Below are positions 23,795 to 37,300 of a stretch of 64,000 nt of DNA, piece after piece. A program made the position numbers and the translations under genes. Numbering within the stretch: position 1 is the stretch's first letter; every line of letters starts with the position of its first letter. The notes under the pieces were generated by a model. It had not been told where the DNA came from and searched no databases. It worked only from the letters and a program-made list of their open reading frames with translations. Source of the DNA: Solitalea lacus. Its GTDB lineage: Bacteria; Bacteroidota; Bacteroidia; Sphingobacteriales; Sphingobacteriaceae. The stretch is from the NCBI RefSeq assembly GCF_022014595.1, contig NZ_CP091740.1, positions 1,724,200 through 1,788,199 on the forward strand, given 5' to 3'.

Positions 23795-26161
23795 CTATGC
23801 CGAGCAGGTAACACATCCCTCTTCCATAGTACAAACAGGTCCGCTGATTTCCTCTTCAACACCAGTATGTTGTATTATAGGTTCAATTTGTTTTTCAGCT
23901 TGTTGTTCAACTGTAAATTTAACAGCAGCATTTGCCGCCTGTGTACGTAAATAATACATGCCGGTTTTTAAACCTTTTTTCCATGCGTAAAAATGCATTG
24001 AAGTAAGTTTGGCGGTATTAGGGCTTTGTACAAATAAGTTTAACGATTGGCTTTGACAGGTGTACGCACCACGGTCAGCTGCCATGTCAATTAAAGTACG
24101 TTGCTTAATTTCCCAAACGGTTTTGTAAAGATCCTTAATATTTTGTGGGATCTCTGGAATGTCCTGAATAGAACCTTCTGCAGCAATAATTTTATTTTTC
24201 ATGGTGTTGTTCCACAAGTTTAGTGCAACAAGATCTTTCAATAAGTGCTTGTTTACAACAATAAACTCGCCTGACAATACACGACGAACATAAATATTTG
24301 AAGTATAAGGCTCAAAACATTCATTATTACCAAATATTTGTGAGGTTGAAGCCGTAGGCATTGGGGCAATTAATAATGAATTACGAATACCGTATTTCTT
24401 AATTTCTTGTTTAAGTGCCGCAAAATCCCAACGAGTAGAAGGAGTCACTCCCCACATATCAAATTGCAGAATGCCTTTTGATGCAGGTGAACCCTCATAA
24501 GTAGGATATGGGCCATCAACCTTCGATAGATCTTTTGATGCTGATAAGGCTGCAAAATAGATGGTTTCAGCGATTTCTTGGTTCAACTTCTGTGCTTCAG
24601 GAGACTCAAAAGGATGACGCAGCATAATAAACACATCCGCCAAACCTTGAATTCCTAAACCAACCGGACGGTGACGCATGTTTGAGTTGCGCGCTTCTTC
24701 AACCGGATAATAATTATTGTCAATTATCTTGTTAAGGTTCAATGTTGCCTGGTAGGTTACTTCGTAAAGTTTATTATGGTCAAACTCCCCATTGGTAACA
24801 AACTTAGGAAGTGCTAGAGATGCAAGGTTACAAACTGCAACTTCATCTTCCGAAGTGTATTCCATAATTTCGGTACATAAATTCGATGATTTAATTGTAC
24901 CTAAATTTTTCTGGTTCGATTTTTTGTTAGCTGCATCTTTATAAAGCATGTATGGGGTGCCTGTTTCTATTTGGGCATCCATGATAGCAAACCATAATTC
25001 TTGTGCCTTTATGGTTTTGCGAGCACGATCCTCTTTTTCATACTTTTCGTATAGTGCCTCAAACTCTTCACCATAGGTGTCATGTAAGCCTGGTGCCTCA
25101 TGTGGACAGAACAAACTCCAGCTGCCATTTTCTTCTACGCGTTTCATGAATAAATCAGGAATCCAAAGGGCATAGAACAAATCACGGGCACGGAGTTCTT
25201 CTTTTCCATGGTTCTTACGCAAGTCAAGGAATTCAAAAATATCGGCATGCCATGGCTCTAAATAGATTGCGAATGCACCTTTTCGCTTACCTCCGCCTTG
25301 GTCAACATAGCGAGCAGTGTCATTGAAAACACGCAACATTGGCACAATACCGTTAGATGTACCATTGGTTCCGCTAATATAAGATCCCGTTGCACGGATA
25401 TTGTGAATGCTTAAGCCAATACCACCGGCAGATTGTGAAATTTTTGCGGTTTGTTTAAGCGTATCATAAATGCCTTCAATACTGTCGTCTTTCATGGTTA
25501 ATAAGAAACATGACGACATTTGAGCTTTTGGTGTACCAGCATTGAAAAGTGTTGGAGTTGCGTGAGTAAACCATTTTTCCGACATCAAATTATAAGTTTT
25601 GATTGCCGATTCGATGTCTTCTTTGTGAATACCAACCGCCACACGCATATACATGTGTTGAGGACGCTCAGCAACTCTACCGTTTAGTTTAAGTAAATAG
25701 GAGCGCTCAATGGTTTTAAAGCCGAAGTAATCAAATGAGAAGTCACGGTCGTAAATAATGCTTGAATCCAGAATATCTGCATTTTCACGAATGATTTCAA
25801 TTATATCATCTCCAAGTAATTGAGCATTTTGGCCTGTTTTTGGATCAACATAATTATAGAGTTTCTCCATAGTTTTGGAGAAGGACTTTTCAGTGTTTTT
25901 ATGGAGATTGGAAACGGCAATTCGAGATGCCAATAAAGCATAATCAGGATGCTTTACAGTCAATGACGCAGCAGTTTCGGCAGCAAGGTTATCCAGTTCA
26001 GAAGTTGTAACTCCGTCATATAAACCCTCAATAACTTTTTTTGCCACATCAATTGGGTCAACGTGTACCGGGTCAAGACCATAATTGAGTTTTTCTATCC
26101 TGGCGGTGATTTTATCAAATTTCACCGATTCAGTTCTGCCGTCGCGTTTTATTACAAACAT
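23795..26161 (-). CDS. nrdA: Class Ia ribonucleoside-diphosphate reductase, alpha subunit
   Basis: This 788-residue catalytic subunit reduces ribonucleoside diphosphates to deoxyribonucleotides. An ATP-cone regulatory domain spans residues 1-95 ([18 protein letters not shown]...). The active-site region has SSCFLL, the Asn-Leu-Cys-x-Glu motif in [10 protein letters not shown], and the partner Cys in [11 protein letters not shown]. The radical-transfer region is present, and a C-terminal redox Cys pair is seen in [12 protein letters not shown]. Length fits a class Ia enzyme with one ATP cone. It follows nrdB by 89 bp on the same strand; nrdB is transcribed first. No NrdR box was recognised. 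Confidence 0.96.
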
Positions 26162-26250
26162 AGTTTAAGAGGTTAGAAGCGTTATTTTAAAAATAGTATA
26201 ATTAAGTTAACAGATTGATTTTGTGTGCTTCAAAGTGCTGTTAGCTTTTA

Positions 26251-27222
26251 TTAAAAGTCTTCATCTAAAGAGAAAATATTAGAGTCTTTATCAGACATTA
26301 CACCGCTTTTTTGATAATCGCCAACACGTTTTTCAAAAAAGTTGGTTTTTCCTTGTAAAGAAATCATTTCCATGAAGTCGAACGGATTGGTAGCGTTGTA
26401 AATTTTGTCGTATCCAAGCGCAACCAACCAGCGGTCGGCAACAAACTCAATGTACTGCTGCATCAGTTTAGCATTCATCCCAATTAAAGCAACAGGCAAG
26501 GCATCGCAGATAAATTCTTTCTCAATATTTACAGCATCTGTAATAATTTCGTGTACCCGTTGTTGCGAAAGTTTGTTTACCAACATGCTATATAATAAGC
26601 AGGCGAATTCGCAATGTGAACCCTCATCTCTCGAAATTAGTTCGTTAGAGAAAGTTAAGCCTGGCATTAATCCGCGTTTTTTAAGCCAAAAGATCGAACA
26701 AAATGAACCTGAGAAGAAAATTCCTTCAACAGCAGCAAAGGCTACCAAACGCTCGGCGAAAGTTCCATTCTCAATCCAACGCAATGCCCACTCTGCCTTT
26801 TTAGTTACGCAAGGAACGGTTTCAATAGCGTTGAACAAGCGGTTTTTCTCAACAGGATCTTTTACATATGTGTCAATTAATAATGCATATGTTTCAGAGT
26901 GAATGTTTTCCATCATGATCTGAAAACCATAATAGCAACGTGCTTCAGGAATTTGTACTTCACTCATGAAGTTTACCGCCAAATTTTCGTTCACAATGCC
27001 ATCACTTGCAGCAAAAAATGCCAACACATGCGAAATGAAGTGCCTTTCTCCGTCGTTAAAATTCTCCCAATCCTTCAAATCATGTGATAGGTCAATTTCT
27101 TCTGCTGTCCAGAAACTGGCTTCAGCCTTTTTATACATCTCCCAAATGGTGGGATACTTAATAGGAAGCAATACAAAACGCTCCTTATTTTCTTGCAAAA
27201 TTGGCTCTTGAACGATTTCCAT
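26251..27222 (-). CDS. nrdB: Class Ia ribonucleoside-diphosphate reductase, beta subunit
   Basis: This 323-residue radical-generating subunit pairs with NrdA. The ferritin-like di-iron site is visible as Asp in AASDGIV, Glu and His in MENIHSETY, Glu in [12 protein letters not shown], and the Glu-x-x-His pair in DEGSHCEF. The radical Tyr follows in HSETYALL, so this is a tyrosyl-radical (not Mn/Fe Phe-type) enzyme. The C-terminal tail [10 protein letters not shown] is the usual NrdA-binding peptide. Together with nrdA it forms a two-gene operon. Confidence 0.96.
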
Positions 27223-27495
27223 ATCTATATCTTTTATACTTTTCTATTAATAACAATTAAAACCAACAATCGACAGTTTTACCACTCGCTCGGCAAACAC
27301 CTGCGTTCAACACTACAACTAGGTTGAAATCATCAATTGTAAATATTGGTGGTTTAATTGGTTTGTAGTAATACTACCGCTAAAAATGATTTTTGTTTTC
27401 AATTTTAGGATTCTGCAGCAAGAATTCGGTAGGAATTTCTTCTGCGCAACGCACTTTTAAAGATTTGCTTTAGCTAACCGATTGATTTTGTGAAC

Positions 27496-27519
27496 GGATA
27501 AGCAATTGCTTGTATATCC
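27496..27519. promoter_or_regulatory. Palindrome upstream of nrdB, possible operator
   Basis: The 486-bp gap between nrdB and the receiver gene (27223-27708) contains AAGCAATTGCTT (27500-27511), a perfect 12-nt palindrome. It overlaps a flanking GGATA on the left and is followed by TATCC. It lies 278 bp before the nrdB start, so a link to nrdB is uncertain. No other feature was recognised in the gap. Confidence 0.25.
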
Positions 27520-27708
27520 AAAGAACGAAATCAAAAGTAATTACAGACACCTATTCATATCTGATTTTCTTTTCAACAAAATGTTAGAAACGTAAGGCGC
27601 TGAAATACAGAAAATTATTCTGCTATTTAAGCGGCAAAGGGTTTTAAATTTTTAATAATACGTTTTTTTAAGTATGGCAGTACTATTAAAGGTGTAAATA
27701 GATGTGTA

Positions 27709-28173
27709 TTAGGAAAGTAACTTTTGACGAAGCAAAAATTCAAGTTGGTCATTGGCGCTTGCCAAATCTTCTGTCAATTGCTTGTTCATTTTTCTTAACA
27801 TATACACGTCAAAACCGTTTTCGATATTCTGACGCAGTTCATATTCATCCCAGGGTTTGCTGATATAGCGGTAAATTTGACCTTTGTTAATAGCGTCAAT
27901 TACAGCATTAATATCGGCATAGCCTGTCAATAACATTCTTATAGGGTCAGGGTAGGTGTCAAGTATTGATTCAAGAAATTCAATACCGGTAGTTTTGGGC
28001 ATTCGTTGGTCGGTAATGAGGACATGAATCTCATTTTCTCCTAAAACTTTCAGGCCTTCTTCAGCAGAAATTGCTGTAAAAATGGTATAGTCTCTTCTAA
28101 AAGCTGCCCTAAAAGCGGTCAGGTTGTTCGGTTCATCATCGATATATAAGACGTTGATGTTTTCTTCACGCAT
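27709..28173 (-). CDS. Single receiver-domain response regulator (RpfG/CheY-like)
   Basis: This is a 154-residue protein with one receiver domain (residues about 6-122) and a short helical tail rich in Leu/Gln (MNKQLTEDLASANDQLEFLLRQ) that may form a coiled coil. The acidic pocket is in YIDDE, the phosphoacceptor Asp is in ITDQRMP, the Thr is in LLTGYAD, and the Lys is in ISKPWDE. The domain is closely similar to the receiver in the kinase at 32338 (shared FRAAFRR-, TYPDPIR-, AIDAINKG- and YRYxSKPWDE-type blocks). It is divergent from the E1/acyltransferase/kinase operon, with 125 bp between starts, and is probably part of the same signalling circuit. Confidence 0.88.
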   Translation of the reverse strand: MREENINVLYIDDEPNNLTAFRAAFRRDYTIFTAISAEEGLKVLGENEIHVLITDQRMPKTTGIEFLESILDTYPDPIRMLLTGYADINAVIDAINKGQIYRYISKPWDEYELRQNIENGFDVYMLRKMNKQLTEDLASANDQLEFLLRQKLLS

Positions 28174-28298
28174 AATCCTCAGAAATTAATTCAAGTACAA
28201 AGATTCGAATATCTAAGATAAAAATTTATATTAGAAAAGATTTTATTCAACTCCAAACCAATAAACATTAATAAAAGTTAAAGCCAAGAATCTCTATC

Positions 28299-29438
28299 AT
28301 GAATTTTCCGTATGAATTACCGCAGTTAATCAACCAAAAGCTTCATTCTTCTCAAACGCAAAATAAAGACTATCATCCTGTTTTTTTTAGATTGGGCCAT
28401 GAGCAGGACACTGCACAATTTTTAACCTTGCTCAGCACTAATCCTGTAATAAAAGTTTACGATAAGATTTTTGATCAGCTTGTTGAGTTAATGCGTATAC
28501 GTCATGTCGGAAAACAACAATCAAATATTGAACAAATTATAATCGAATACTTGGCTGGAGTTCCATTAGAAGAATATGGGGTTTGGGTGTATTATCCTTG
28601 GAATAATAAAATAGTTCACCTATTGGATGAAGAAGAATTTATCGAAGTAAGAACAAGTAGAAATAAATTAAAAATTACAAAAGAAGAACAGGATGTTTTA
28701 AAAGATAAATGCATCGGTGTTGTTGGATTGTCTGTTGGGCAAGCTATTGCTATTACTATTGCAATGGAACGAGTGTGCGGTTCTTTGCGTTTGACTGACT
28801 TTGACACTTTTGAATTAAGCAACCTGAATCGAGTTAGGGCAGGAGTTAGTGAATTGGGTGTTTCAAAAGTAGTATATTGCGCCCGTCAAATTGCTGAAAT
28901 AGATCCATTTGTTAAAATTTCATGTTTTGAACATGGAGTTTCGGCTGATAATATTAACGAGTTTTTAGGTGAGGGAGATAGCCAGATTGATTTGCTTATA
29001 GAAGTTTGTGACAGTTTGGAGATGAAGGTTATTGCTCGATTGGCAGCAAAAAATAAGTGCATGCCGATTGTTATGGAAACAAATGATAAAGGTATACTTG
29101 ATATCGAGCGATTTGATATAGAGCCTGATCGTGAACTTTTACATGGAAGAATTGAGCATATTGAAGGTGATTTGAAGGAAATTGAAAAGCAGTTGTCTTC
29201 ATTAAACCCGCAAGATCGGATTCAGTTTCTGGCAAAAATGATAGGAATGGAAAATATATCTGATCGCATGAAACTTTCTTTGCAGCAAATGGGTAAAACC
29301 ATTAATAGTTGGCCTCAATTGGCCTCTGCGGTAGTTGTAGGAGGAGGGGCTGTTACAAATATTAGTCGTCGTATTTTATTGAACACCTTAACGAAATCGG
29401 GAAGGTATTTTGTTGATGTTGAAGAAATCGTTGCCTGA
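28299..29438 (+). CDS. ThiF/E1-like adenylating enzyme (Rv1355c-like)
   Basis: This 379-residue protein has an N-terminal region (1-130) of unknown fold and a ThiF/MoeB/UBA1-type adenylation domain at about 130-375. The nucleotide-binding strand is CIGVVGLSVGQAIAI (138-152; the usual Gly-rich loop is GLSVGQ). The core DFDTFELSNLNR (167-178) contains the conserved Asp and Arg, and a further Asp lies in EVCDSLEMK. Asp-rich METNDKGILDIERFD (259-273) is typical of Rv1355c-like members, which in actinobacteria are fused to a nitroreductase domain absent here. No zinc-binding CxxC pairs and no obvious ubiquitin-like partner are seen. It is the first gene of an operon with an acyltransferase and sensor kinases. 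It would activate a carboxylate as AMP ester; the substrate is unknown. Confidence 0.85.
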   Translation: MNFPYELPQLINQKLHSSQTQNKDYHPVFFRLGHEQDTAQFLTLLSTNPVIKVYDKIFDQLVELMRIRHVGKQQSNIEQIIIEYLAGVPLEEYGVWVYYPWNNKIVHLLDEEEFIEVRTSRNKLKITKEEQDVLKDKCIGVVGLSVGQAIAITIAMERVCGSLRLTDFDTFELSNLNRVRAGVSELGVSKVVYCARQIAEIDPFVKISCFEHGVSADNINEFLGEGDSQIDLLIEVCDSLEMKVIARLAAKNKCMPIVMETNDKGILDIERFDIEPDRELLHGRIEHIEGDLKEIEKQLSSLNPQDRIQFLAKMIGMENISDRMKLSLQQMGKTINSWPQLASAVVVGGGAVTNISRRILLNTLTKSGRYFVDVEEIVA

Positions 29439-29460
29439 AATCAGAGAAATTTAATGTAAA

Positions 29461-30177
29461 ATGATCGGAATCAGAGTTTTTCGAGCTATTGATGACCCCG
29501 ACGCCTGTCAAAAGTATATTGAAGGACATCGTCGAATTTTAGAAATTCATGGCGTAGTAAAAATCACTTCATATAAGCATGATTGGGTAGATGATCCGCA
29601 TACAATGGTGATTTTAGTGGAGGAGCAGGAAAGCGGAAGAGTGATGGGGGGAGCTCGGCTGCAACTTCGAAGAAGTGGTCAGAGTTTACCAATTGAATTG
29701 GCTTTGAGTAAATACGATCCTAAGATTTTAGAGATGGTACATCAAGCCGAATTAAATGGGGGAACCTGTGAATTATGCGGTTTATGGAATTCGATGGAAG
29801 TTGCAGGAATGGGTATTGGAAGTTACATATTATCCCGCATTGGGGCAGCGATATCTACTCAATTACCAATAGCAAGTATTTTTGTGTTATGTTCTCCGGT
29901 TACCGTTCGTATGGGAAGAAGAGTAGGGGCGGTAGTTGAAAGACAATTAGGGAACAATGGGCTTTTTTATTATCCAAAAGATGATTTAATTGCAACGGCA
30001 ATGTTGTTGAGTGACTGTGATACGCTTCATCATGCTGATCCGAAAGAAAGAGAACTTATTTTCGATTTAAGAAAAACTCCTTTTCAACTTAGAACTGAAA
30101 TTGGTCCTAAGGGACAATTTGACTTGGAGTATAATGTTTTAATTAAGAACCTAAACTATAACCTGGCCAATAGTTAA
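29461..30177 (+). CDS. GNAT/LuxI-like acyltransferase
   Basis: This 238-residue protein looks like a member of the GNAT/autoinducer-synthase-like fold. RVMGGARLQLRR (residues about 60-71), followed by LPIELAL, recalls the central strand pattern of LuxI-type acyltransferases. CGLWNSMEVAGMGIGSYILSR (about 108-128) supplies the acyl-CoA pyrophosphate loop (GMGIGS). The C-terminal part contains FVLCSPVTVRMGRRVGA and a Tyr/Pro-containing YYPKDDLIATAML segment. Substrates cannot be told. It begins 22 bp after the E1-like gene and its TAA overlaps the ATG of the 7TMR-DISM kinase by one base, so the three are translationally coupled. The fold call is by motif; a role in making a signal is inference. 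Confidence 0.65.
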   Translation: MIGIRVFRAIDDPDACQKYIEGHRRILEIHGVVKITSYKHDWVDDPHTMVILVEEQESGRVMGGARLQLRRSGQSLPIELALSKYDPKILEMVHQAELNGGTCELCGLWNSMEVAGMGIGSYILSRIGAAISTQLPIASIFVLCSPVTVRMGRRVGAVVERQLGNNGLFYYPKDDLIATAMLLSDCDTLHHADPKERELIFDLRKTPFQLRTEIGPKGQFDLEYNVLIKNLNYNLANS

Positions 30178-32357
30178 TGAAAGTTATTCGTTATCTTCTT
30201 TTACTTTTATGTATTGCTTTGAGTTTTGTCTCTAAAGCTTATACCCCAACGACAGTAAAGGATGAATTTCAGGTTTATTCTTTAGGTAAATCATTAATGG
30301 TTTATGAAGATAAATCGGGTAATGAGTCCCTTCAGCAAGTAATCTCAAAATCTAAGTTTACTTTATGTAAAGAGGATGTTCCAAATTTTGGTATCAGTAA
30401 ATCTGCTTTTTGGTTAAAGTTTTCCATTCAGAATACTACACCAAAAAGTCAGCTTTTGTTATTGATTGAAAATCCTATCATAGACGAAATTGAGTATTAC
30501 CAGGTAAAAGATAATAAGACTGTTAATCAATTTGAGTTAGGCGATACTCACGCATTTAATAAACGGCAAATAGCAAACGCTAATTACGTTTTTCCAATAT
30601 CCACCGATTCCAATAATTTAATTACTGTTTATATTAAGGTAAAAAGTAACGATCAACTGCAATTGCCGGTTTTTATAGGTACCGAGCAGGCTATTTATCA
30701 ACAGTTGTTATTGCGCGATCTGCTGTTTGGAATATACTCTGGTATTATTCTCATAATGGTATTATATAACTTGTTTGTTTATGTTTCTGTAAAGGACAGC
30801 AGTTATATATACTACGTACTGTTTATTGTTTTTGTTGGCTTATCTCAAGCAACTTTACAAGGTTTTGGTTTTAGGTTTTTATGGCCAAATCAAAGTTGGT
30901 TTTCAGTTAACAGTACGATAATTATACCGGTATTCTCGGGTATAACTACAGGGCTTTTCATGAAGAAGTTCCTGCAAACAGCACTCTATGCCCCGAAACT
31001 CGATAAAGGTATTGATGTTTTTATAGGCGGTTACGTCTTGGCTCTGCTGGTTTGTTTAGCCGGATTTAACCATGAAGCGTTGCAGTTATTGCACTTGCAA
31101 GGGGCAATTGGATCCTTTTATGCCTTATATGTCGGTTATTGCATTCATAAAAAAGGAATTCGTTCCGGTCGGTTTTTCCTGATTGCAAACTCGATTTTCT
31201 TATTGGCAGTAGTAGTGTTTGTGTTACGTAATGTCAATGTTGTTCCTTACAACACTTTTACTTCGGTAATTCTTGAATTGGGTTCGGCATTTCAGGTTTC
31301 GTTACTTTCATTTGCTTTGGCCGATAAGATAAACACTTTGAAGAGGGAAAAAGAGCTTTCTCAAGAACAAGCTCTAGTGGCCTCATTGGAAAATGAAAAA
31401 CTGGTACGGGAACAAAATGTAATGCTTGAGCAAAAGGTAAATGAACGAACCGAAGAACTGCAGCAAACCAATTCAGAACTTCAGTCTACTTTAAATCAAT
31501 TGAAAGATACCCAGTCACAATTGGTGGATGCTGAAAAGATGGCCTCATTGGGGCAATTAACTGCGGGGATTGCCCATGAAATTAACAATCCGATAAATTT
31601 TGTCAGCTCTAACATAAAGCCTCTTCAGATGGATATTGATGATTTATTTTCTGTTATTGCTAAATATGAAGAGCTTGACTTAAGTTCAAATGCCGAGGAG
31701 AAGCTGAAGGAAATAGATCAGTTTAAGAAAAAGATTGATTTGGAATACGTTGGGAGTGAGATAAAATTGTTGCTTCAAGGAATTCAAGACGGAGCCGTTA
31801 GAACTGCAGAAATTGTTAAGGGATTGCGTAGCTTCAGTCGTTTGGATGAGAGTGAAATGAAGAAAATTGATGTTCATGAGTGTATTGACTCTACATTAAT
31901 AATTCTTAAACATGTAATCCCTTCTTTTATAACAATAAAAAAAGAATATAATGCCGACAAGCAGATTGAATGTTATCCTGGAAAACTGAACCAGGCTTTG
32001 CTCAATTTGTTTAATAACGCCATTCAGGCAGTTGTGCAAACCCAAAATGAAACAAACCATTCAATCACTATTAAAACAGATTGTCAAGGTGATTTTATAG
32101 GTTTGTCAATTTCAGATACCGGTATAGGAATGCCTGAGTCTATTAGGGAAAGAATTTTTGAACCATTCTTTACTACAAAAGAAGTTGGACAAGGTACCGG
32201 ACTTGGATTATCTATTGTTTATAAAATTATAGAAAAGCATCAAGGGAAAATTGAAGTGCAATCGATCCAAGGTGTGGGAACTACTTTTACGCTGCTTTTA
32301 CCATTACAATTAAAAAACGAACAAATTTATGTAGCAGATGAAGTCTTCCAAGCGTAA
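30177..32357 (+). CDS. 7TMR-DISM sensor histidine kinase
   Basis: This is a 726-residue membrane sensor. It has a signal peptide (1-22), a periplasmic 7TMR-DISMED2 carbohydrate-binding-like domain (about 30-165), and seven hydrophobic segments (about 180-385; 7TMR-DISM_7TM). A coiled coil follows (about 385-450), then a HisKA-type dimerisation domain with the phosphoacceptor His467 in [15 protein letters not shown]. The HATPase domain has an N-box near [11 protein letters not shown], the G1 box SDTGIGMP and the G2 box GTGLGLSIV. It is of the NtrB-like long-linker type common in Bacteroidota. It overlaps the acyltransferase gene by 1 bp and the next kinase gene by 20 bp. The ligand is unknown; a product of the two upstream enzymes is an attractive hypothesis. 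Confidence 0.92.
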
Positions 32358-33456
32358 AGTCATTCAAATCTTATATATAGACGACGAACTAAATAACCTA
32401 TTGGCTTTTAAAGCCGCTTTTAGGCGAGAGTTTGAAATTTATACTGCTCAATCTGCTAATGAGGGATTAAAGCTGCTTCAAGAAATTCCTGTTCAGATAA
32501 TTATTTCTGATCAAAGGATGCCCGGATGCTCTGGGGTTGAATTTTTTAGATCCATTGTAGATAGATATCCCGATCCTATTCGAATTTTAATCACAGGCTA
32601 TACCGATTCGGAGGCGTTAATTGATGCGATTAATAACGGCCATATTTATCGTTATTTAAGCAAGCCTTGGGATGAAATGGAACTTCGTAATGCAATTCAC
32701 AATGCGTTTGATACCTACCAAACCCGTAAGCAATTACAAGTTAATTATGAAGAGCTGCAAAAGACGAATGACGAATTGAGTAGATTTACGTACAGCCTTT
32801 CGCATGATTTGCGTTCACCTCTTATGTCGATTTTAGGCATTATCAAACTCTCTAAAATCGAACAGTCTGTAGTTGATCCTAATGGTTACCTTGACATTAT
32901 TGAGCAAAGTGTAAATAAGCTCGATGGATTTATTTTGAAAGTAATTGAGTATTATCAAAACTCAAGGAGTGAAAATTTAAGTGAAACCATTGAGTTTGAT
33001 ACCTTGCTATCTGAGATAGTTGAGAACTTTAAGCTTCAAAATAATACAATTAACTACCAAACAGCAATTGAACAGCCGGTTCCGTTTAGGGGAGATAGCT
33101 TCAGGATTTCGGTGATTTTCAATAACCTAATTTCTAATGCTGTTAAATATCAACGAGTTGATGAATTGGTCCCTGCAATTTGGGTAAAAGTTAATGTTGA
33201 TTCATCGCGAGCCTTGATCACTCTAGGCGATAACGGAATAGGTATTTTGAATGAGCATTTAGATCAAATTTTTAAGCTTTTCTTTAGAGCAAAAAATACT
33301 AAAAGAACAGGAAATGGTATTGGTCTTTATATAGTAAAAGATGCATTAACTAAAATAGGAGGAACAATTTCTGTTCAGTCTAAATTGAATAAAGGAACTG
33401 TATTCGAAATTTCTATTCCAAACTTGGCTGTGGAGGAGCGTGTGTTATGCGAATAA
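32338..33456 (+). CDS. Receiver-histidine kinase (REC-HisKA-HATPase)
   Basis: This is a 372-residue cytosolic protein. The N-terminal receiver domain (8-125) has the acidic pair in YIDDE, phosphoacceptor Asp58 in ISDQRMP and Lys109 in LSKPWDE. A linker coiled coil leads to a HisKA domain with His156 in SLSHDLRSPL. The HATPase domain has the N-box FNNLISNAVKY, the G1 box GDNGIGI and the G2 box TGNGIGLYIV. Phosphorylation by the upstream membrane kinase would control its own kinase output. Its receiver is nearly collinear with the separate regulator at 27709-28173, implying a duplication. It overlaps its neighbours at both ends (20 bp and 10 bp), so the set is one operon. Confidence 0.92.
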   Translation: MKSSKRKVIQILYIDDELNNLLAFKAAFRREFEIYTAQSANEGLKLLQEIPVQIIISDQRMPGCSGVEFFRSIVDRYPDPIRILITGYTDSEALIDAINNGHIYRYLSKPWDEMELRNAIHNAFDTYQTRKQLQVNYEELQKTNDELSRFTYSLSHDLRSPLMSILGIIKLSKIEQSVVDPNGYLDIIEQSVNKLDGFILKVIEYYQNSRSENLSETIEFDTLLSEIVENFKLQNNTINYQTAIEQPVPFRGDSFRISVIFNNLISNAVKYQRVDELVPAIWVKVNVDSSRALITLGDNGIGILNEHLDQIFKLFFRAKNTKRTGNGIGLYIVKDALTKIGGTISVQSKLNKGTVFEISIPNLAVEERVLCE

Positions 33457-33848
33457 TGGTGATTGATGATAGTAAAATAGATCTGTTTATTGCAGAACGC
33501 TTAATAACGCTGAGTGATATAAGTACTGATATTATTCTTTGCAGTTCTGCAGAAGACGGGCTTAAATATTTAAAGCAAAATTGTACGACTCTTGAGAAAT
33601 TACCCGAACTTATTTTACTCGATATTCATATGCCTGAAATGGATGGTTTTGAGTTTTTGGAGGAGTTCGAGCAACTGCCTTCTGCACTTGTGCAAGATAT
33701 TGGGGTGTTTTTGCTAACATCCTCTGTCGATCGGAAAGATCTGGCGCGTTCAGCGGCTAATCCTTTAGTTATGAAGCTGATCATGAAACCCTTAAATACT
33801 GAGGTATTAGCGCAATGCATTGAAAATTATTTTTTTAACCAAAATTAG
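33447..33848 (+). CDS. Single-domain CheY-like response regulator
   Basis: This 133-residue protein is a receiver domain only. It has the acidic pair in VIDDSK, the phosphoacceptor Asp in LLDIHMPEMDGFEF, Thr/Ser in LLTSSVDR, and Lys in IMKPLN. It overlaps the kinase gene before it by 10 bp and ends the operon. No output domain is present, so it probably acts by protein-protein contact or as a phosphate sink or shuttle. It belongs to the family of CheY-like regulators often paired with such kinases in Bacteroidota. The DNA-binding output of this circuit is not in the window. Confidence 0.9.
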   Translation: MRIMVIDDSKIDLFIAERLITLSDISTDIILCSSAEDGLKYLKQNCTTLEKLPELILLDIHMPEMDGFEFLEEFEQLPSALVQDIGVFLLTSSVDRKDLARSAANPLVMKLIMKPLNTEVLAQCIENYFFNQN

Positions 33849-33868
33849 TTCGTCTTTCAATAGTAAGT

Positions 33869-33895
33869 ATTACAATTTTTCTTGCTAATTGTAAT
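33869..33895. terminator. Weak inverted repeat after the signalling operon
   Basis: ATTACAATT (33869-33877) and AATTGTAAT (33887-33895) form a 9-bp stem 20 bp after the last receiver gene; no T-run follows. The rest of the 528-bp gap to the giant gene is very AT-rich, has no gene, and presumably holds the promoter of the gene at 34377. Confidence 0.3.
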
Positions 33896-34376
33896 CATTC
33901 ATTAATAATTCTTAAATAATAGTTATTTCTGAATAAATAAATTTGTTATTCAGAATAATTCTATGAATGCTAATTATTAACACCTGTGGAAATTTTTCTT
34001 AATATGACACCTTCCTTTTTTATAATTATATTGTCTTTCTAGAATAAAATCCCAAAAATAATTTTGATTATAATTTTATTAACTTTAAATTACTTATTAT
34101 AATCAATAGATAACTAAATAAGTATAGAATTTAAACTTCTGTGCTTCTTATTTATCAATGTCTAACTGAAACTTTTGATTTCTTAACATCGTATAAAACT
34201 ATAGAGAAAGTGTAGGCTATTAATATGCCTTTATGTTTCTTCATAACCATGTTCGGATTATTGATGCTACAAGCAATTGCTCTTAATTGGTTGTTGTTCA
34301 ATTAAATGAATAAATAGTACAAATTAAACCATACCCGTTTTTCGGGAACCAACAAACTAACCTTAACTGATACTGC

Positions 34377-37300
34377 ATGGAACAAAACTTCTACGCACAA
34401 ACATTACGGTTATTAAAATCTTCCGGGAGTCCCTTTCGGTTTTTAATGATCTTCTTTTTTGCCCTTTTGGGTCTACTTGGTTCAGGCTTTGACGCTAAAG
34501 GCCAACAGTCTTCCAATGGCGCCTTATGTAGTGGTACACTCGGAAGTCCGGTTGTAACCATTGACTTTGGTTATGGAACTGCCAGTAGTAACTATGGGCC
34601 TCCTCTTGCTTCAAGTGTGACCAATTATGACTATTGGTATCCTAGTATTATTCCAATTGCTCCTGATGCAGGAGATGATTTGCATGATAATAAATATGCA
34701 ATTCTTCCGCGCTTGAATTGGAATATAAGCCATAATGCTGCAAAGGATGGAAGCGGAAGGTGGACGAGTCCTGGGGCATGGCATATTTATAATCATGACC
34801 ATACTTATTGGTTAGATATACAAAATGGTATAACTCCACGGACAGACGGTTATATGTATGTGGTTAATGCCGCTTATGAGCCGGGGATTTTTTATCAAGA
34901 ACGCGTAGATCAGTTATGTGCCGGAACTACATATGAGTTTTCAGCTTATATTACTAACCTTATTAATGGTTCTTCATGTGGAAATAATGCAATTAAGCCA
35001 AATGTTCGGTTTCAAATTGAATCTACTACTGGTACAGTATTAGGTTATTATGAAACAGGGGATTTAAATCAGACAAATTGTAAAACATCTGCAAGTTATA
35101 ATCTGCCTACCTCTAATCCAACAGAATGTGTAGCTGAAAAGGATCTTTGGCAGCAGGTTGGATTTTTATTTACTATACCAGCAGGTAACTCTTCGGTAAT
35201 TATTAAGATGATTAATAATAACCCTGGAGGCTGCGGTAATGACTTGGCTATTGATGATATCAATTTTCGTCCTTGTGGCCCAACCATATCAATGCAGCCA
35301 TCTACAGATAAGCAAATTTGTATAGGTGATAACTTTGATTTTTGGGCGGTTTTAGGATCGGGTTACTCAAACCCGTACTATGTTTGGGAAAAAAGTACAG
35401 ATGGAGGAAATACTTGGTTTGATTATACAAGTCCAAGTACTAATAACAGGCTAACATTTACGAATGCTACAATAACTAATAGCGGGTATTATCGCGTAAG
35501 GGTAGGAGGTGATGCTACTTCGGTAACAAATGACAACTGTTATGTTATTTCAGATCCGGTGCGTTTAACAGTAATGCCGCTTCCATCGGTTAGTGTTACC
35601 GGCAGAAGTAGTTTATGTTTAGGAGAGTCAACAACCTTGGTTGCCGATCCAAGCAATGCTCGTAGTTATCAATGGTTCAAAGTTGGACAAGCGACTGCAC
35701 TAACAGCAAAAGGTAATTTTCCAACATATACATTCACTGCAACCAGTGTTACTCAATCGGGTGATTATTATGTTGTGGCTTATAACGATTATAACTGTCA
35801 ACAACAATCACAAAATTTCCATGTTACAGTTAACGCTCCACCTACACCTCAAATTATAGGTCCTACCAGTATTTGTAATGGAGATGAAGGTACTTTAAGA
35901 ATTTCTGGAGTTACCAACGCAGTAGCTTGGCAGTGGTATGAATGGGATGGACAGAACCGTAGGGTATTAGATGTAAATGGAACAGGTCCAACATATACCG
36001 TTCGGGGTGGATTGCAGAGTGAGTATTCTGTACGTGTTACAGATGCCAATGGTTGTTCGGCTGAATCTCCTAAGTTTAAAGTTACCGGCGGACAGCCTAT
36101 CAAAGGTAGATTTGGTTATGTTGGTGGAATTCCGCTGTGTGGAGGTAGTAGTACCACTATGTACTTCCAGTTAATAGGTAACGGTGTAGAACCAGGTTAC
36201 TTCGCATGGTATAAGGATGGTGTAATTTACAGAGATGGTCAATGGCCTCCAAATACGAATCAAATTCAGGTGGTAATTACAGAACCAGGACGTTATCGCC
36301 TGTGGGTGGAAAACTTCAATGGCTGTACTGGCTTTGCTGAGGGATGGTTGGATGTGGTTGTATATCCTCCTCCTGTACCTGAAATTGTACAATCTGGTCC
36401 GGTATCATTTTGTGGTTACGCTGGTGCTGGAGTAACATTAAGTGTTAGCGGTAGTTTTAGTACCTATCAATGGTATAAAAATGGAGTAATTATTTCAGGA
36501 GCCACTGGTGCAACTTATTATGCTACTACAAGTGGTGATTATACGGTTTGGGTAACATCCAATAATGGTTGTACAGGAGGATCTGCAACGACTACTGTAA
36601 CAGTAAACTCCGTACCAACACCATCAATTGCCCCAGCTGCAGGTCAATCTCCAACATTCTGTTCAGGCGGATCTGTTGACCTGGTAGCTACCCCGGCAGG
36701 GGCTTCAAATTATACCTGGTATCTTAACGGTACAACCCAGGTTCAAACCGGGCCATCAAATATTTTCCATGCAACTCAAGCAGGTAATTATACTGTAAAA
36801 GTTACCTCCGCACAATCTTGTGATGGTACTTCTGCTCCATTTGCAGTAACAGTTTACGATATTCCTAATCCTGTAGTTTCTCCGGGAACCTCAAGTATTT
36901 GTGCCGGAACTCCGTTGACATTATCAGTTGGTCCTATTGCAGCAGGAGCAATTTATACATGGTATAAAACAGGAAGTTCTACTCCATTAGGTACTGGTGC
37001 AACTTACCCAGTTAATGAAACAGTTGCAGGTACTTATAATTATTATGTAGTAGCTACATATTCGGGTGGTTGTTCAGAAACATCAAATAATGCCACCATA
37101 ACGGTAAATGCATTGCCGAATACAACTATAACAGCTAGTGGTCCAGCAAGTTTCTGTGCGCCGGGTAGTGTAACATTAAGCGTACCTGTACAGGCAGGTG
37201 CCACTTACATATGGTATAAAGATGGAATTGCTATTGTACCTGCAGCTACAAGCAATCAATATATAGCAACCACTTCGGGTACATATACTGTAAAAGTAAC

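Follow-up and report, generated by a model that had tools for sequence, protein, structure and literature searches.

A conserved acyltransferase, ThiF-like cyclase and 7TMR-DISM kinase operon in Solitalea lacus, a putative synthase-receptor module for a capped N-acyl amino acid

A stretch of 64,000 nucleotides from Solitalea lacus (contig NZ_CP091740.1, positions 1,724,200 to 1,788,199, forward strand; the whole of it is hereafter called the window) carries an operon in which a ThiF/E1-like enzyme and an acyltransferase (AT) are encoded directly upstream of a 7TMR-DISM sensor histidine kinase. The operon probably constitutes a synthase-receptor module for a capped N-acyl amino acid (probability about 0.6). 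A preliminary description, made from the letters and open reading frames (ORFs) alone, had suggested a make-and-sense module for an acylated or amide-type small molecule; this is still the best reading, the sensing of the product being its conditional part. It is built on gene content, conservation, gene linkage, the swapping of one enzyme for others, the predicted fold of AT, conserved catalytic residues and an association between the sensor and the enzyme chemistry. The features concerned are as follows.

27709-28173, - strand: stand-alone receiver without output domain, divergent from the operon (Response_reg 6e-19; phospho-acceptor Asp in LITDQRMP)
28174-28298, no strand: intergenic region of 125 bp between the receiver gene and the operon, as read from the sequence
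28299-29438, + strand: ThiF/E1-like cyclase, Rv1355c/TrzS family, lacking the flavin-dependent oxidase (FDO) half (NCBIfam PRK07877; Pfam ThiF 4.9e-15)
29461-30177, + strand: AT, a FeeM/LuxI-type GNAT acyltransferase, probable N-acyl amino acid synthase (AlphaFold model, Foldseek, VIA)
30177-32357, + strand: 7TMR-DISM sensor histidine kinase, probable receptor (Pfam; His in AHEINNP)
32338-33456, + strand: receiver-histidine kinase with Response_reg, HisKA and HATPase_c, probable cytosolic relay (Pfam; receiver Asp and H-box intact)
33447-33848, + strand: stand-alone receiver without output domain, final gene of the operon (Response_reg 1.7e-13; phospho-acceptor Asp in LLDIHMP)

ORF positions and domain searches bore out the six genes of the preliminary description, each at the position given there, as a five-gene operon on the + strand plus the divergent receiver gene. 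The spacing is as tight as had been claimed, with 22 bp between the ThiF and AT genes and overlaps of 1, 20 and 10 bp at the later junctions. The phosphorylation His and Asp sites expected of the kinases and receivers are all present.

The acyltransferase gene is fixed beside a DISM kinase gene across Bacteroidota

Surveys were made with one genome per species in evenly drawn samples of the family, phylum and class, which overlap (for example in G000, G014, G016 and G021), and their counts are not additive. In the family to which the window belongs, 83 of 201 genomes, representing 17 of 25 genera, encode the ThiF protein, either as a stand-alone enzyme or within a fusion some 770 residues long. 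AT adjoins ThiF in all 40 of these 83 loci that were fetched, and the DISM kinase gene comes next in 39, the contig ending in the remaining one. The phylum draw (395 genomes) gave ThiF in 11 and AT in 13 genomes, AT adjoining ThiF in 11/11, and the DISM kinase was present in 9/9 newly fetched loci. Searching the class draw with an AT profile gave hits in 75/395 genomes, covering 43/197 genera and 21 families; 74 of these 75 have a DISM kinase gene no more than 3.5 kb from AT and in the same orientation, and the 75th contig ends at AT, indicating that a putative synthase gene is fixed beside a sensor kinase gene across species. Among 80 named loci, including those of Algoriphagus, Pedobacter, Mucilaginibacter, Daejeonella, Echinicola and Dyadobacter, the kinase is found in 74, five contigs end too early, and one, from a Blastocatellia metagenome-assembled genome (MAG; L156), truly lacks both AT and the kinase.

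Removal of loci sharing a 60-mer left 155 of 193, made up of 148 with AT and kinase, four in which AT lies within 211 bp of a contig end, and three without AT. The conserved co-occurrence of the enzymes with DISM kinases, for which the preliminary description had proposed a neighbourhood survey, was thus found in 148/148 evaluable loci after near-copies were removed. DISM_7TM matches number 0-5 per genome in 30 chosen genomes (26 with AT, 4 without), with two above the cut-off in the genome of the window itself, and given so few DISM genes per genome the linkage is confirmed not to be due to chance. Nor is it a frozen stretch of DNA, because gene order varies, AT standing before or after ThiF and the receivers in different positions. 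In five loci (L263, L265, L268, L270 and L271) seemingly missing genes proved to be present by tblastn, the ThiF part of L263 lying past the contig end. The receiver-kinase and receivers are present in most module loci, and most related loci have a homologue of the divergent receiver next to the module, though its orientation is not divergent in every case and some loci have none.

The enzyme encoded beside AT is swappable

Modifying-enzyme types were assigned by Pfam on example loci. Beside AT in the 75 class loci, ThiF with FDO was found in 41, ThiF alone in 21 (the window included) and FDO with its ThiF part past the contig end in two. The remaining loci carry a class I S-adenosylmethionine (SAM) methyltransferase (7), an ICMT enzyme (1), a Methyltransf_2 O-methyltransferase (1), no such enzyme (1), or one lying out of sight (1). 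Methyltransferases of three families therefore take the place of ThiF in 9/75 class loci, and the phylum draw added a second ICMT-family case (L093). On the ThiF tree, FDO is gained or lost six times.

Since ThiF cyclisation acts on a carboxylate and ICMT enzymes are carboxyl methyltransferases, a capped carboxylate is the probable common theme. It is plausible that the swappable enzymes all act on an N-acyl amino acid, with the carboxylate as the probable site; for the two methyltransferase families other than ICMT, placing the methyl group there is a guess. One locus (L232, 4395-8693) encodes AT, a DISM kinase, a receiver-kinase and a receiver with no modifying enzyme near, and there an N-acyl amino acid without a cap could serve as the signal.

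Association between the sensor half of the kinase and the modifying chemistry

The kinase has the 7TMR-DISM histidine kinase architecture, with a 7TMR-DISMED2 ectodomain (residues 37-167; 6e-33) and a 7TMR-DISM_7TM region (181-384; 7e-48), followed by HisKA and HATPase_c. Its HisKA match is weak (24.1 bits, below the cut-off of 26.9), with the H-box intact. An AlphaFold model of residues 1-400 (pLDDT 93.4) resembles in its ectodomain the periplasmic domain of RetS (3jyb, Z 17.8) and, weakly, carbohydrate-binding folds. The 7TM half of the model (30177-31376) also showed likeness in fold searches to G protein-coupled receptors, Wntless and TMEM87A, with TM-scores by query length of 0.29-0.36 and Z values within or close to the range where helix bundles call for caution, and this likeness was not used as evidence. 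Wntless carries an acylated ligand.

A tree of sensor regions places 27 module kinases, together with two others, in one supported clade (95/96) that excludes 17 other DISM proteins, and the module label needs 3 changes on it compared to 14.9 when shuffled; seven of the 26 non-module DISM loci, which had no BLAST match to the module sensors, were omitted from it (L311, L317, L318, L320, L321, L322 and L324). The trees used for the chemistry comparisons and for the methyltransferase-type receptors are quick ones with SH-aLRT support only. Chemistry was scored as FDO-positive, FDO-negative or methyltransferase, two loci with a cut-off ThiF being counted as FDO-positive and two (L232 and L241) being left unscored. 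The sensor tree needs 11 chemistry changes, compared to 15 for the kinase half and 17 for AT, with a shuffled mean of about 26; the sensor half tracks the modifying chemistry better than the kinase half or AT does. Cutting the sensor to 243 random columns, the length of AT, in four draws still gave 11-13 changes, this subsampling being applied to the sensor and not to the kinase half. The membrane part of the sensor needs 13. Six of the seven receptors that accompany class I methyltransferases, from four families, form one clade (SH-aLRT 100), which is separate from the ThiF-type receptors found in those two families (f59 and f84) that have both types.

The ThiF-like enzyme belongs to the Rv1355c/TrzS cyclase family

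The ThiF protein matches the Rv1355c family (NCBIfam PRK07877) with an E value of 3e-132 and 442 bits over profile positions 3-339 of 722; the score falls below the full-length cut-off of 476 because the FDO half is absent and the match is limited to the N-terminal ThiF half. Eight residues (R118, R121, D167, D169, N175, R178, K190 and D238) are identical across the seven homologues compared, a set that includes one pair of near-copies as well as plasmid proteins from Rhodococcus and Mycobacterium. We take these eight to be the E1 adenylation-site residues, with D238 presumably corresponding to D217 of TrzS. The protein is accordingly of the Rv1355c/TyzB/OxzB cyclase type, and its adenylation residues are intact. 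Rv1355c is TrzS, in which the ThiF domain (with ATP) cyclises and the FDO domain (with O2) desaturates N-acyl tryptophan to N-acyl tryptazolone, TrzA being the tryptophan N-acylating enzyme (PMC12856293), and TyzACB yields tyrazolones (PMC10404671).

No FDO, fused or adjacent, is encoded in the window. An FDO query gave no match in the genome of the window, and the same query matches G018 (29% identity) and G275, from which it was taken; one nitroreductase frame of 222 residues lies elsewhere in the genome of the window. The absence of zinc-binding Cys pairs and of a ubiquitin-like partner, as described earlier, is right for the neighbourhood: the ThiF protein contains no CxxC pair, and no frame of at least 40 residues ending in GG was found on either strand in 25001-37000, a partner farther away being possible. 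A ubiquitin-like, ThiS/MoaD or other protein-conjugation role was set aside because no such partner is nearby and the best family is that of Rv1355c.

Two related loci outside Bacteroidota were observed. On a Streptomyces plasmid (L174, 7830-9628), a stand-alone ThiF gene (46% identical to an Algoriphagus query) overlaps an Acetyltransf_3-family GNAT gene, with a MerR gene upstream. In the Blastocatellia MAG (L156, 1720-5153), a gene for a ThiF-FDO fusion overlaps an upstream frame of 370 residues, which on visual inspection resembles a GNAT but not AT; no DISM kinase is encoded there.

AT is probably an N-acyl amino acid synthase

AT gave no Pfam or NCBIfam match at E<=0.1, and membership of the LuxI-type autoinducer-synthase family by sequence was rejected on this ground. 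PDB sequence searches (phmmer and profile) returned nothing relevant, tblastn found no AT in plasmids, and hhalign found no similarity to the Streptomyces GNAT encoded beside the stand-alone ThiF (L174). An AlphaFold model computed from the window protein and 32 relatives (pLDDT 92.5) has a LuxI/FeeM-like GNAT fold, in agreement with the LuxI/GNAT-like acyltransferase of the preliminary description. Five FeeM chains (2g0b) lead the Foldseek matches (E 3e-7), with the N-acyl homoserine lactone (AHL) synthases BjaI, LasI, RpaI and TofI close behind. FeeM is also first in VIA (Z 16.2, rmsd 2.7, 175 residues aligned), where BjaI and LasI reach Z 15.2 (199 and 182 residues, respectively) and TofI 14.7, and AHL and N-acyl amino acid synthases cover more of AT than ordinary GNATs do. 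FeeM shares 13-15% identity with AT.

Alignment by hhalign with the acyltransferase encoded beside trzS in Rhodococcus and Nocardia was co-linear over 162 columns (E 3e-4, probability 39%), with a score of 34.5 against a maximum of 22.3 among 100 column-shuffled controls; a single-sequence comparison with the Rhodococcus neighbour gave E 0.017 and probability 2.7%, the higher figures coming from a three-sequence profile. AT is thus, by its predicted fold, probably an N-acyl amino acid synthase of the FeeM/LuxI type, to which sequence adds a suggestive link. One module (L144, 12430-13877) contains a tandem pair of AT genes, perhaps with two acyl or amino acid specificities.

Proposed mechanism

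From the above we infer substrates, product, export, ligand binding, phosphorelay wiring and output along the following lines. AT would acylate an amino acid at its amino group, with an acyl thioester as donor. On the resulting N-acyl amino acid, the ThiF-like enzyme would adenylate the carboxylate with ATP, and the amide oxygen would close the ring to give an N-acyl oxazolone (azlactone). As no oxidase is present here, the ring would stay saturated unless hydrolysed or otherwise used, and the product in this case is perhaps a saturated N-acyl oxazolone. Capped, neutral and lipophilic, the product would exit the cell or partition into the membrane, where the DISM kinase encoded directly downstream may sense it; a phosphorelay would then run from the DISM kinase to the receiver-kinase, to the stand-alone receivers and on to their targets. 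In related modules a desaturase would join the ThiF step or a SAM methyltransferase replace ThiF, the head group varying by lineage and the sensor half of the receptor with it.

A broader proposal, to which we give about even odds, is that Bacteroidota communicate chemically by means of N-acyl amino acid autoinducers whose carboxylate cap can be exchanged (saturated oxazolone, unsaturated oxazolone or methyl ester), and that the 7TMR-DISM kinases reading them make up a dedicated clade, which has co-diversified with the cap.

Several observations weigh against the synthase-receptor reading or parts of it. For the sensor, the module kinases do not strictly form one clade (3 changes), although a single clade was not rejected (approximately unbiased test, p 0.086); the seventh class I methyltransferase receptor (L234) is placed elsewhere; taken by itself, the ectodomain (175 columns) needs 16 changes, which is no improvement on the other genes; and, the genes all being linked, tracking of chemistry by the sensor may reflect joint inheritance alone. 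The operon contains neither an exporter nor a DNA-binding output regulator, the four cyclase loci examined outside Bacteroidota (L156 and L174-L176) have no DISM kinase gene directly alongside, and L232 has AT and the DISM kinase yet no modifying enzyme. For AT, the ordinary GNATs 1xeb (Z 15.6) and ElaA (15.4) tie with FeeM in VIA over about 146 residues, and homology to TrzA is weak, as the hhalign probability indicates. For the saturated oxazolone, the cyclised saturated species was reported as not detected in cells, and TyzA with TyzB expressed without the oxidase gave no cyclised product; a saturated cyclised intermediate did accumulate in vitro with TrzS under limited O2 (PMC12856293). 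Such an oxazolone may be short-lived or rapidly used. The negative result in cells, the tied GNATs and the hhalign probability bear more on the product and the assignment of AT than on the synthase-receptor reading.

Alternative explanations

The main rival is that the kinase merely regulates production: it would sense an outside cue, such as envelope stress, a polysaccharide or another lipid, and switch on production of an N-acyl amino acid or oxazolone that is not the kinase ligand but serves as an antibiotic, surfactant or stress lipid. Sensor genes commonly adjoin biosynthetic genes in regulated clusters, and the likeness of the DISMED2 ectodomain to the RetS periplasmic domain, and weakly to carbohydrate-binding folds, fits such a cue. 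Antibiotics are reported to induce oxazolones in several proteobacteria, and N-acyl tyrosine derivatives of Stieleria to be antimicrobial (PMC12856293). Against this, the linkage is near-absolute in 21 families, and of the two halves of the protein it is the sensor half that keeps closer to the capping chemistry, which a cue sensor, linkage aside, has no reason to do. We regard this explanation as possible, though clearly less probable than the synthase-receptor module.

Two further alternatives appear improbable, to about the same degree. AT and ThiF might act on a protein, peptide or cell-envelope substrate (by lipid modification, thiolation or ligation) while the kinase monitors the state of the envelope, as the E1 superfamily includes protein-activating enzymes and the solved sequence relatives of the ThiF protein include TcdA-type dehydratases, UBA5 and MoeB; this is opposed by the missing CxxC pair and GG-ending partner, by the best match to the Rv1355c/TrzS cyclases with many relatives carrying a fused nitroreductase-type domain, and by the methyltransferases that replace ThiF. 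That AT alone makes an AHL or another non-amino-acid amide, which ThiF only recycles or inactivates, would agree with the AHL synthases ranking close behind FeeM, but no autoinducer-synthase Pfam match was found at E<=0.1, FeeM tops both fold lists, and the characterised ThiF cyclases of the Rv1355c family use N-acyl amino acids.

Comparison with known systems

The preliminary description knew of no pathway of this composition. The whole, oxazolone-type enzymes with a dedicated DISM kinase, its breadth and the swappable cap, was indeed not found in the open-licence papers searched (supplements excluded), but the enzyme pair has a precedent in the Rv1355c/TrzS oxazolone family (PMC10404671, PMC12856293). 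What is new is the coupling, both the enzymes and this type of kinase having been described before. An N-acyltransferase adjoining an Rv1355c-family ThiF cyclase is shared with TrzAS and TyzACB (Mycobacterium, Rhodococcus) and OxzAB (Pseudoalteromonas), and many Bacteroidota relatives carry a ThiF-FDO fusion comparable to TrzS and OxzB. Unlike these systems, the window lacks FDO, the module is coupled to a DISM kinase in fixed fashion, its enzyme can be swapped for a methyltransferase, and AT is distant from the actinobacterial acyltransferase. The main text on trzAS mentions no kinase or receptor (PMC12856293). The stieleriacine, thalassotalic acid and kyonggic acid clusters likewise combine genes for an N-acyl amino acid synthase, ThiF and a nitroreductase, in Stieleria also a methyltransferase; they differ in that a histidine kinase appears nowhere in the main text describing them (PMC12479983).

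FeeM, from uncultured soil microbes, is the best solved-structure match of the AT model, with the low identity given above, and to our knowledge does not adjoin a DISM kinase. RetS and LadS share the combination of DISMED2 ectodomain, 7TM region and kinase, the window ectodomain model matching RetS itself, and we know of no signal synthase encoded alongside either. A signal synthase gene beside a membrane kinase and relay is familiar from CqsA/CqsS and LuxM/LuxN of Vibrio and RpfF/RpfC of Xanthomonas, from which the module differs by its synthase chemistry, the DISM-type 7TM receptor and the swappable capping enzymes.

We know of no LuxI-type synthase in Bacteroidetes. AHL production has been reported for Bacteroidetes strains (PMC4304359), some of which reports an AHL-like product of the module could explain. 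The physiological role of oxazolones was named a major unresolved question, and their likeness to AHLs was remarked upon (PMC12856293). According to the same study, oxazolones undergo hydrolysis under acid conditions and alcoholysis when placed in methanol. As the module ties oxazolone-type enzymes to one specific type of receptor kinase in the 21 families of the class draw that carry it, the signalling idea is directly testable in culturable carriers such as Pedobacter, Algoriphagus and Dyadobacter. If true, it would provide a first function for natural oxazolones and account for part of the reported AHL-like activity of Bacteroidota, and the methyltransferase variants would predict a related signal family with matched receptors.

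On two Rhodococcus plasmids (L175, 3808-4788; L276, 2808-3788), a trzS homologue and an acyltransferase candidate lie beside a GGDEF gene. Cyclic di-GMP genes adjoin trzAS of Mycobacterium tuberculosis (PMC12856293), and by analogy the GGDEF neighbours may represent another link between oxazolones and signalling.

Promoters and downstream gene

Both promoters, that of the divergent receiver gene and that of the operon, likely lie within 28174-28298. A sigma-70 promoter scan, which does not cover Bacteroidota promoters, found no site inside this region, and in the sigma-70 promoter and terminator scan sites were fewer than in shuffled sequences. Beginning 528 bp past the operon, a repetitive protein of 7064 residues with a type B sorting domain of the type IX secretion system (TIGR04131, E 6e-19) is encoded on the + strand (34377-55571), which may be a regulatory target or merely the next gene. 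A large protein with a similar start occupies the equivalent place in 3/3 relatives of the same genus that were fetched (L056-L058), each cut by the end of the locus.

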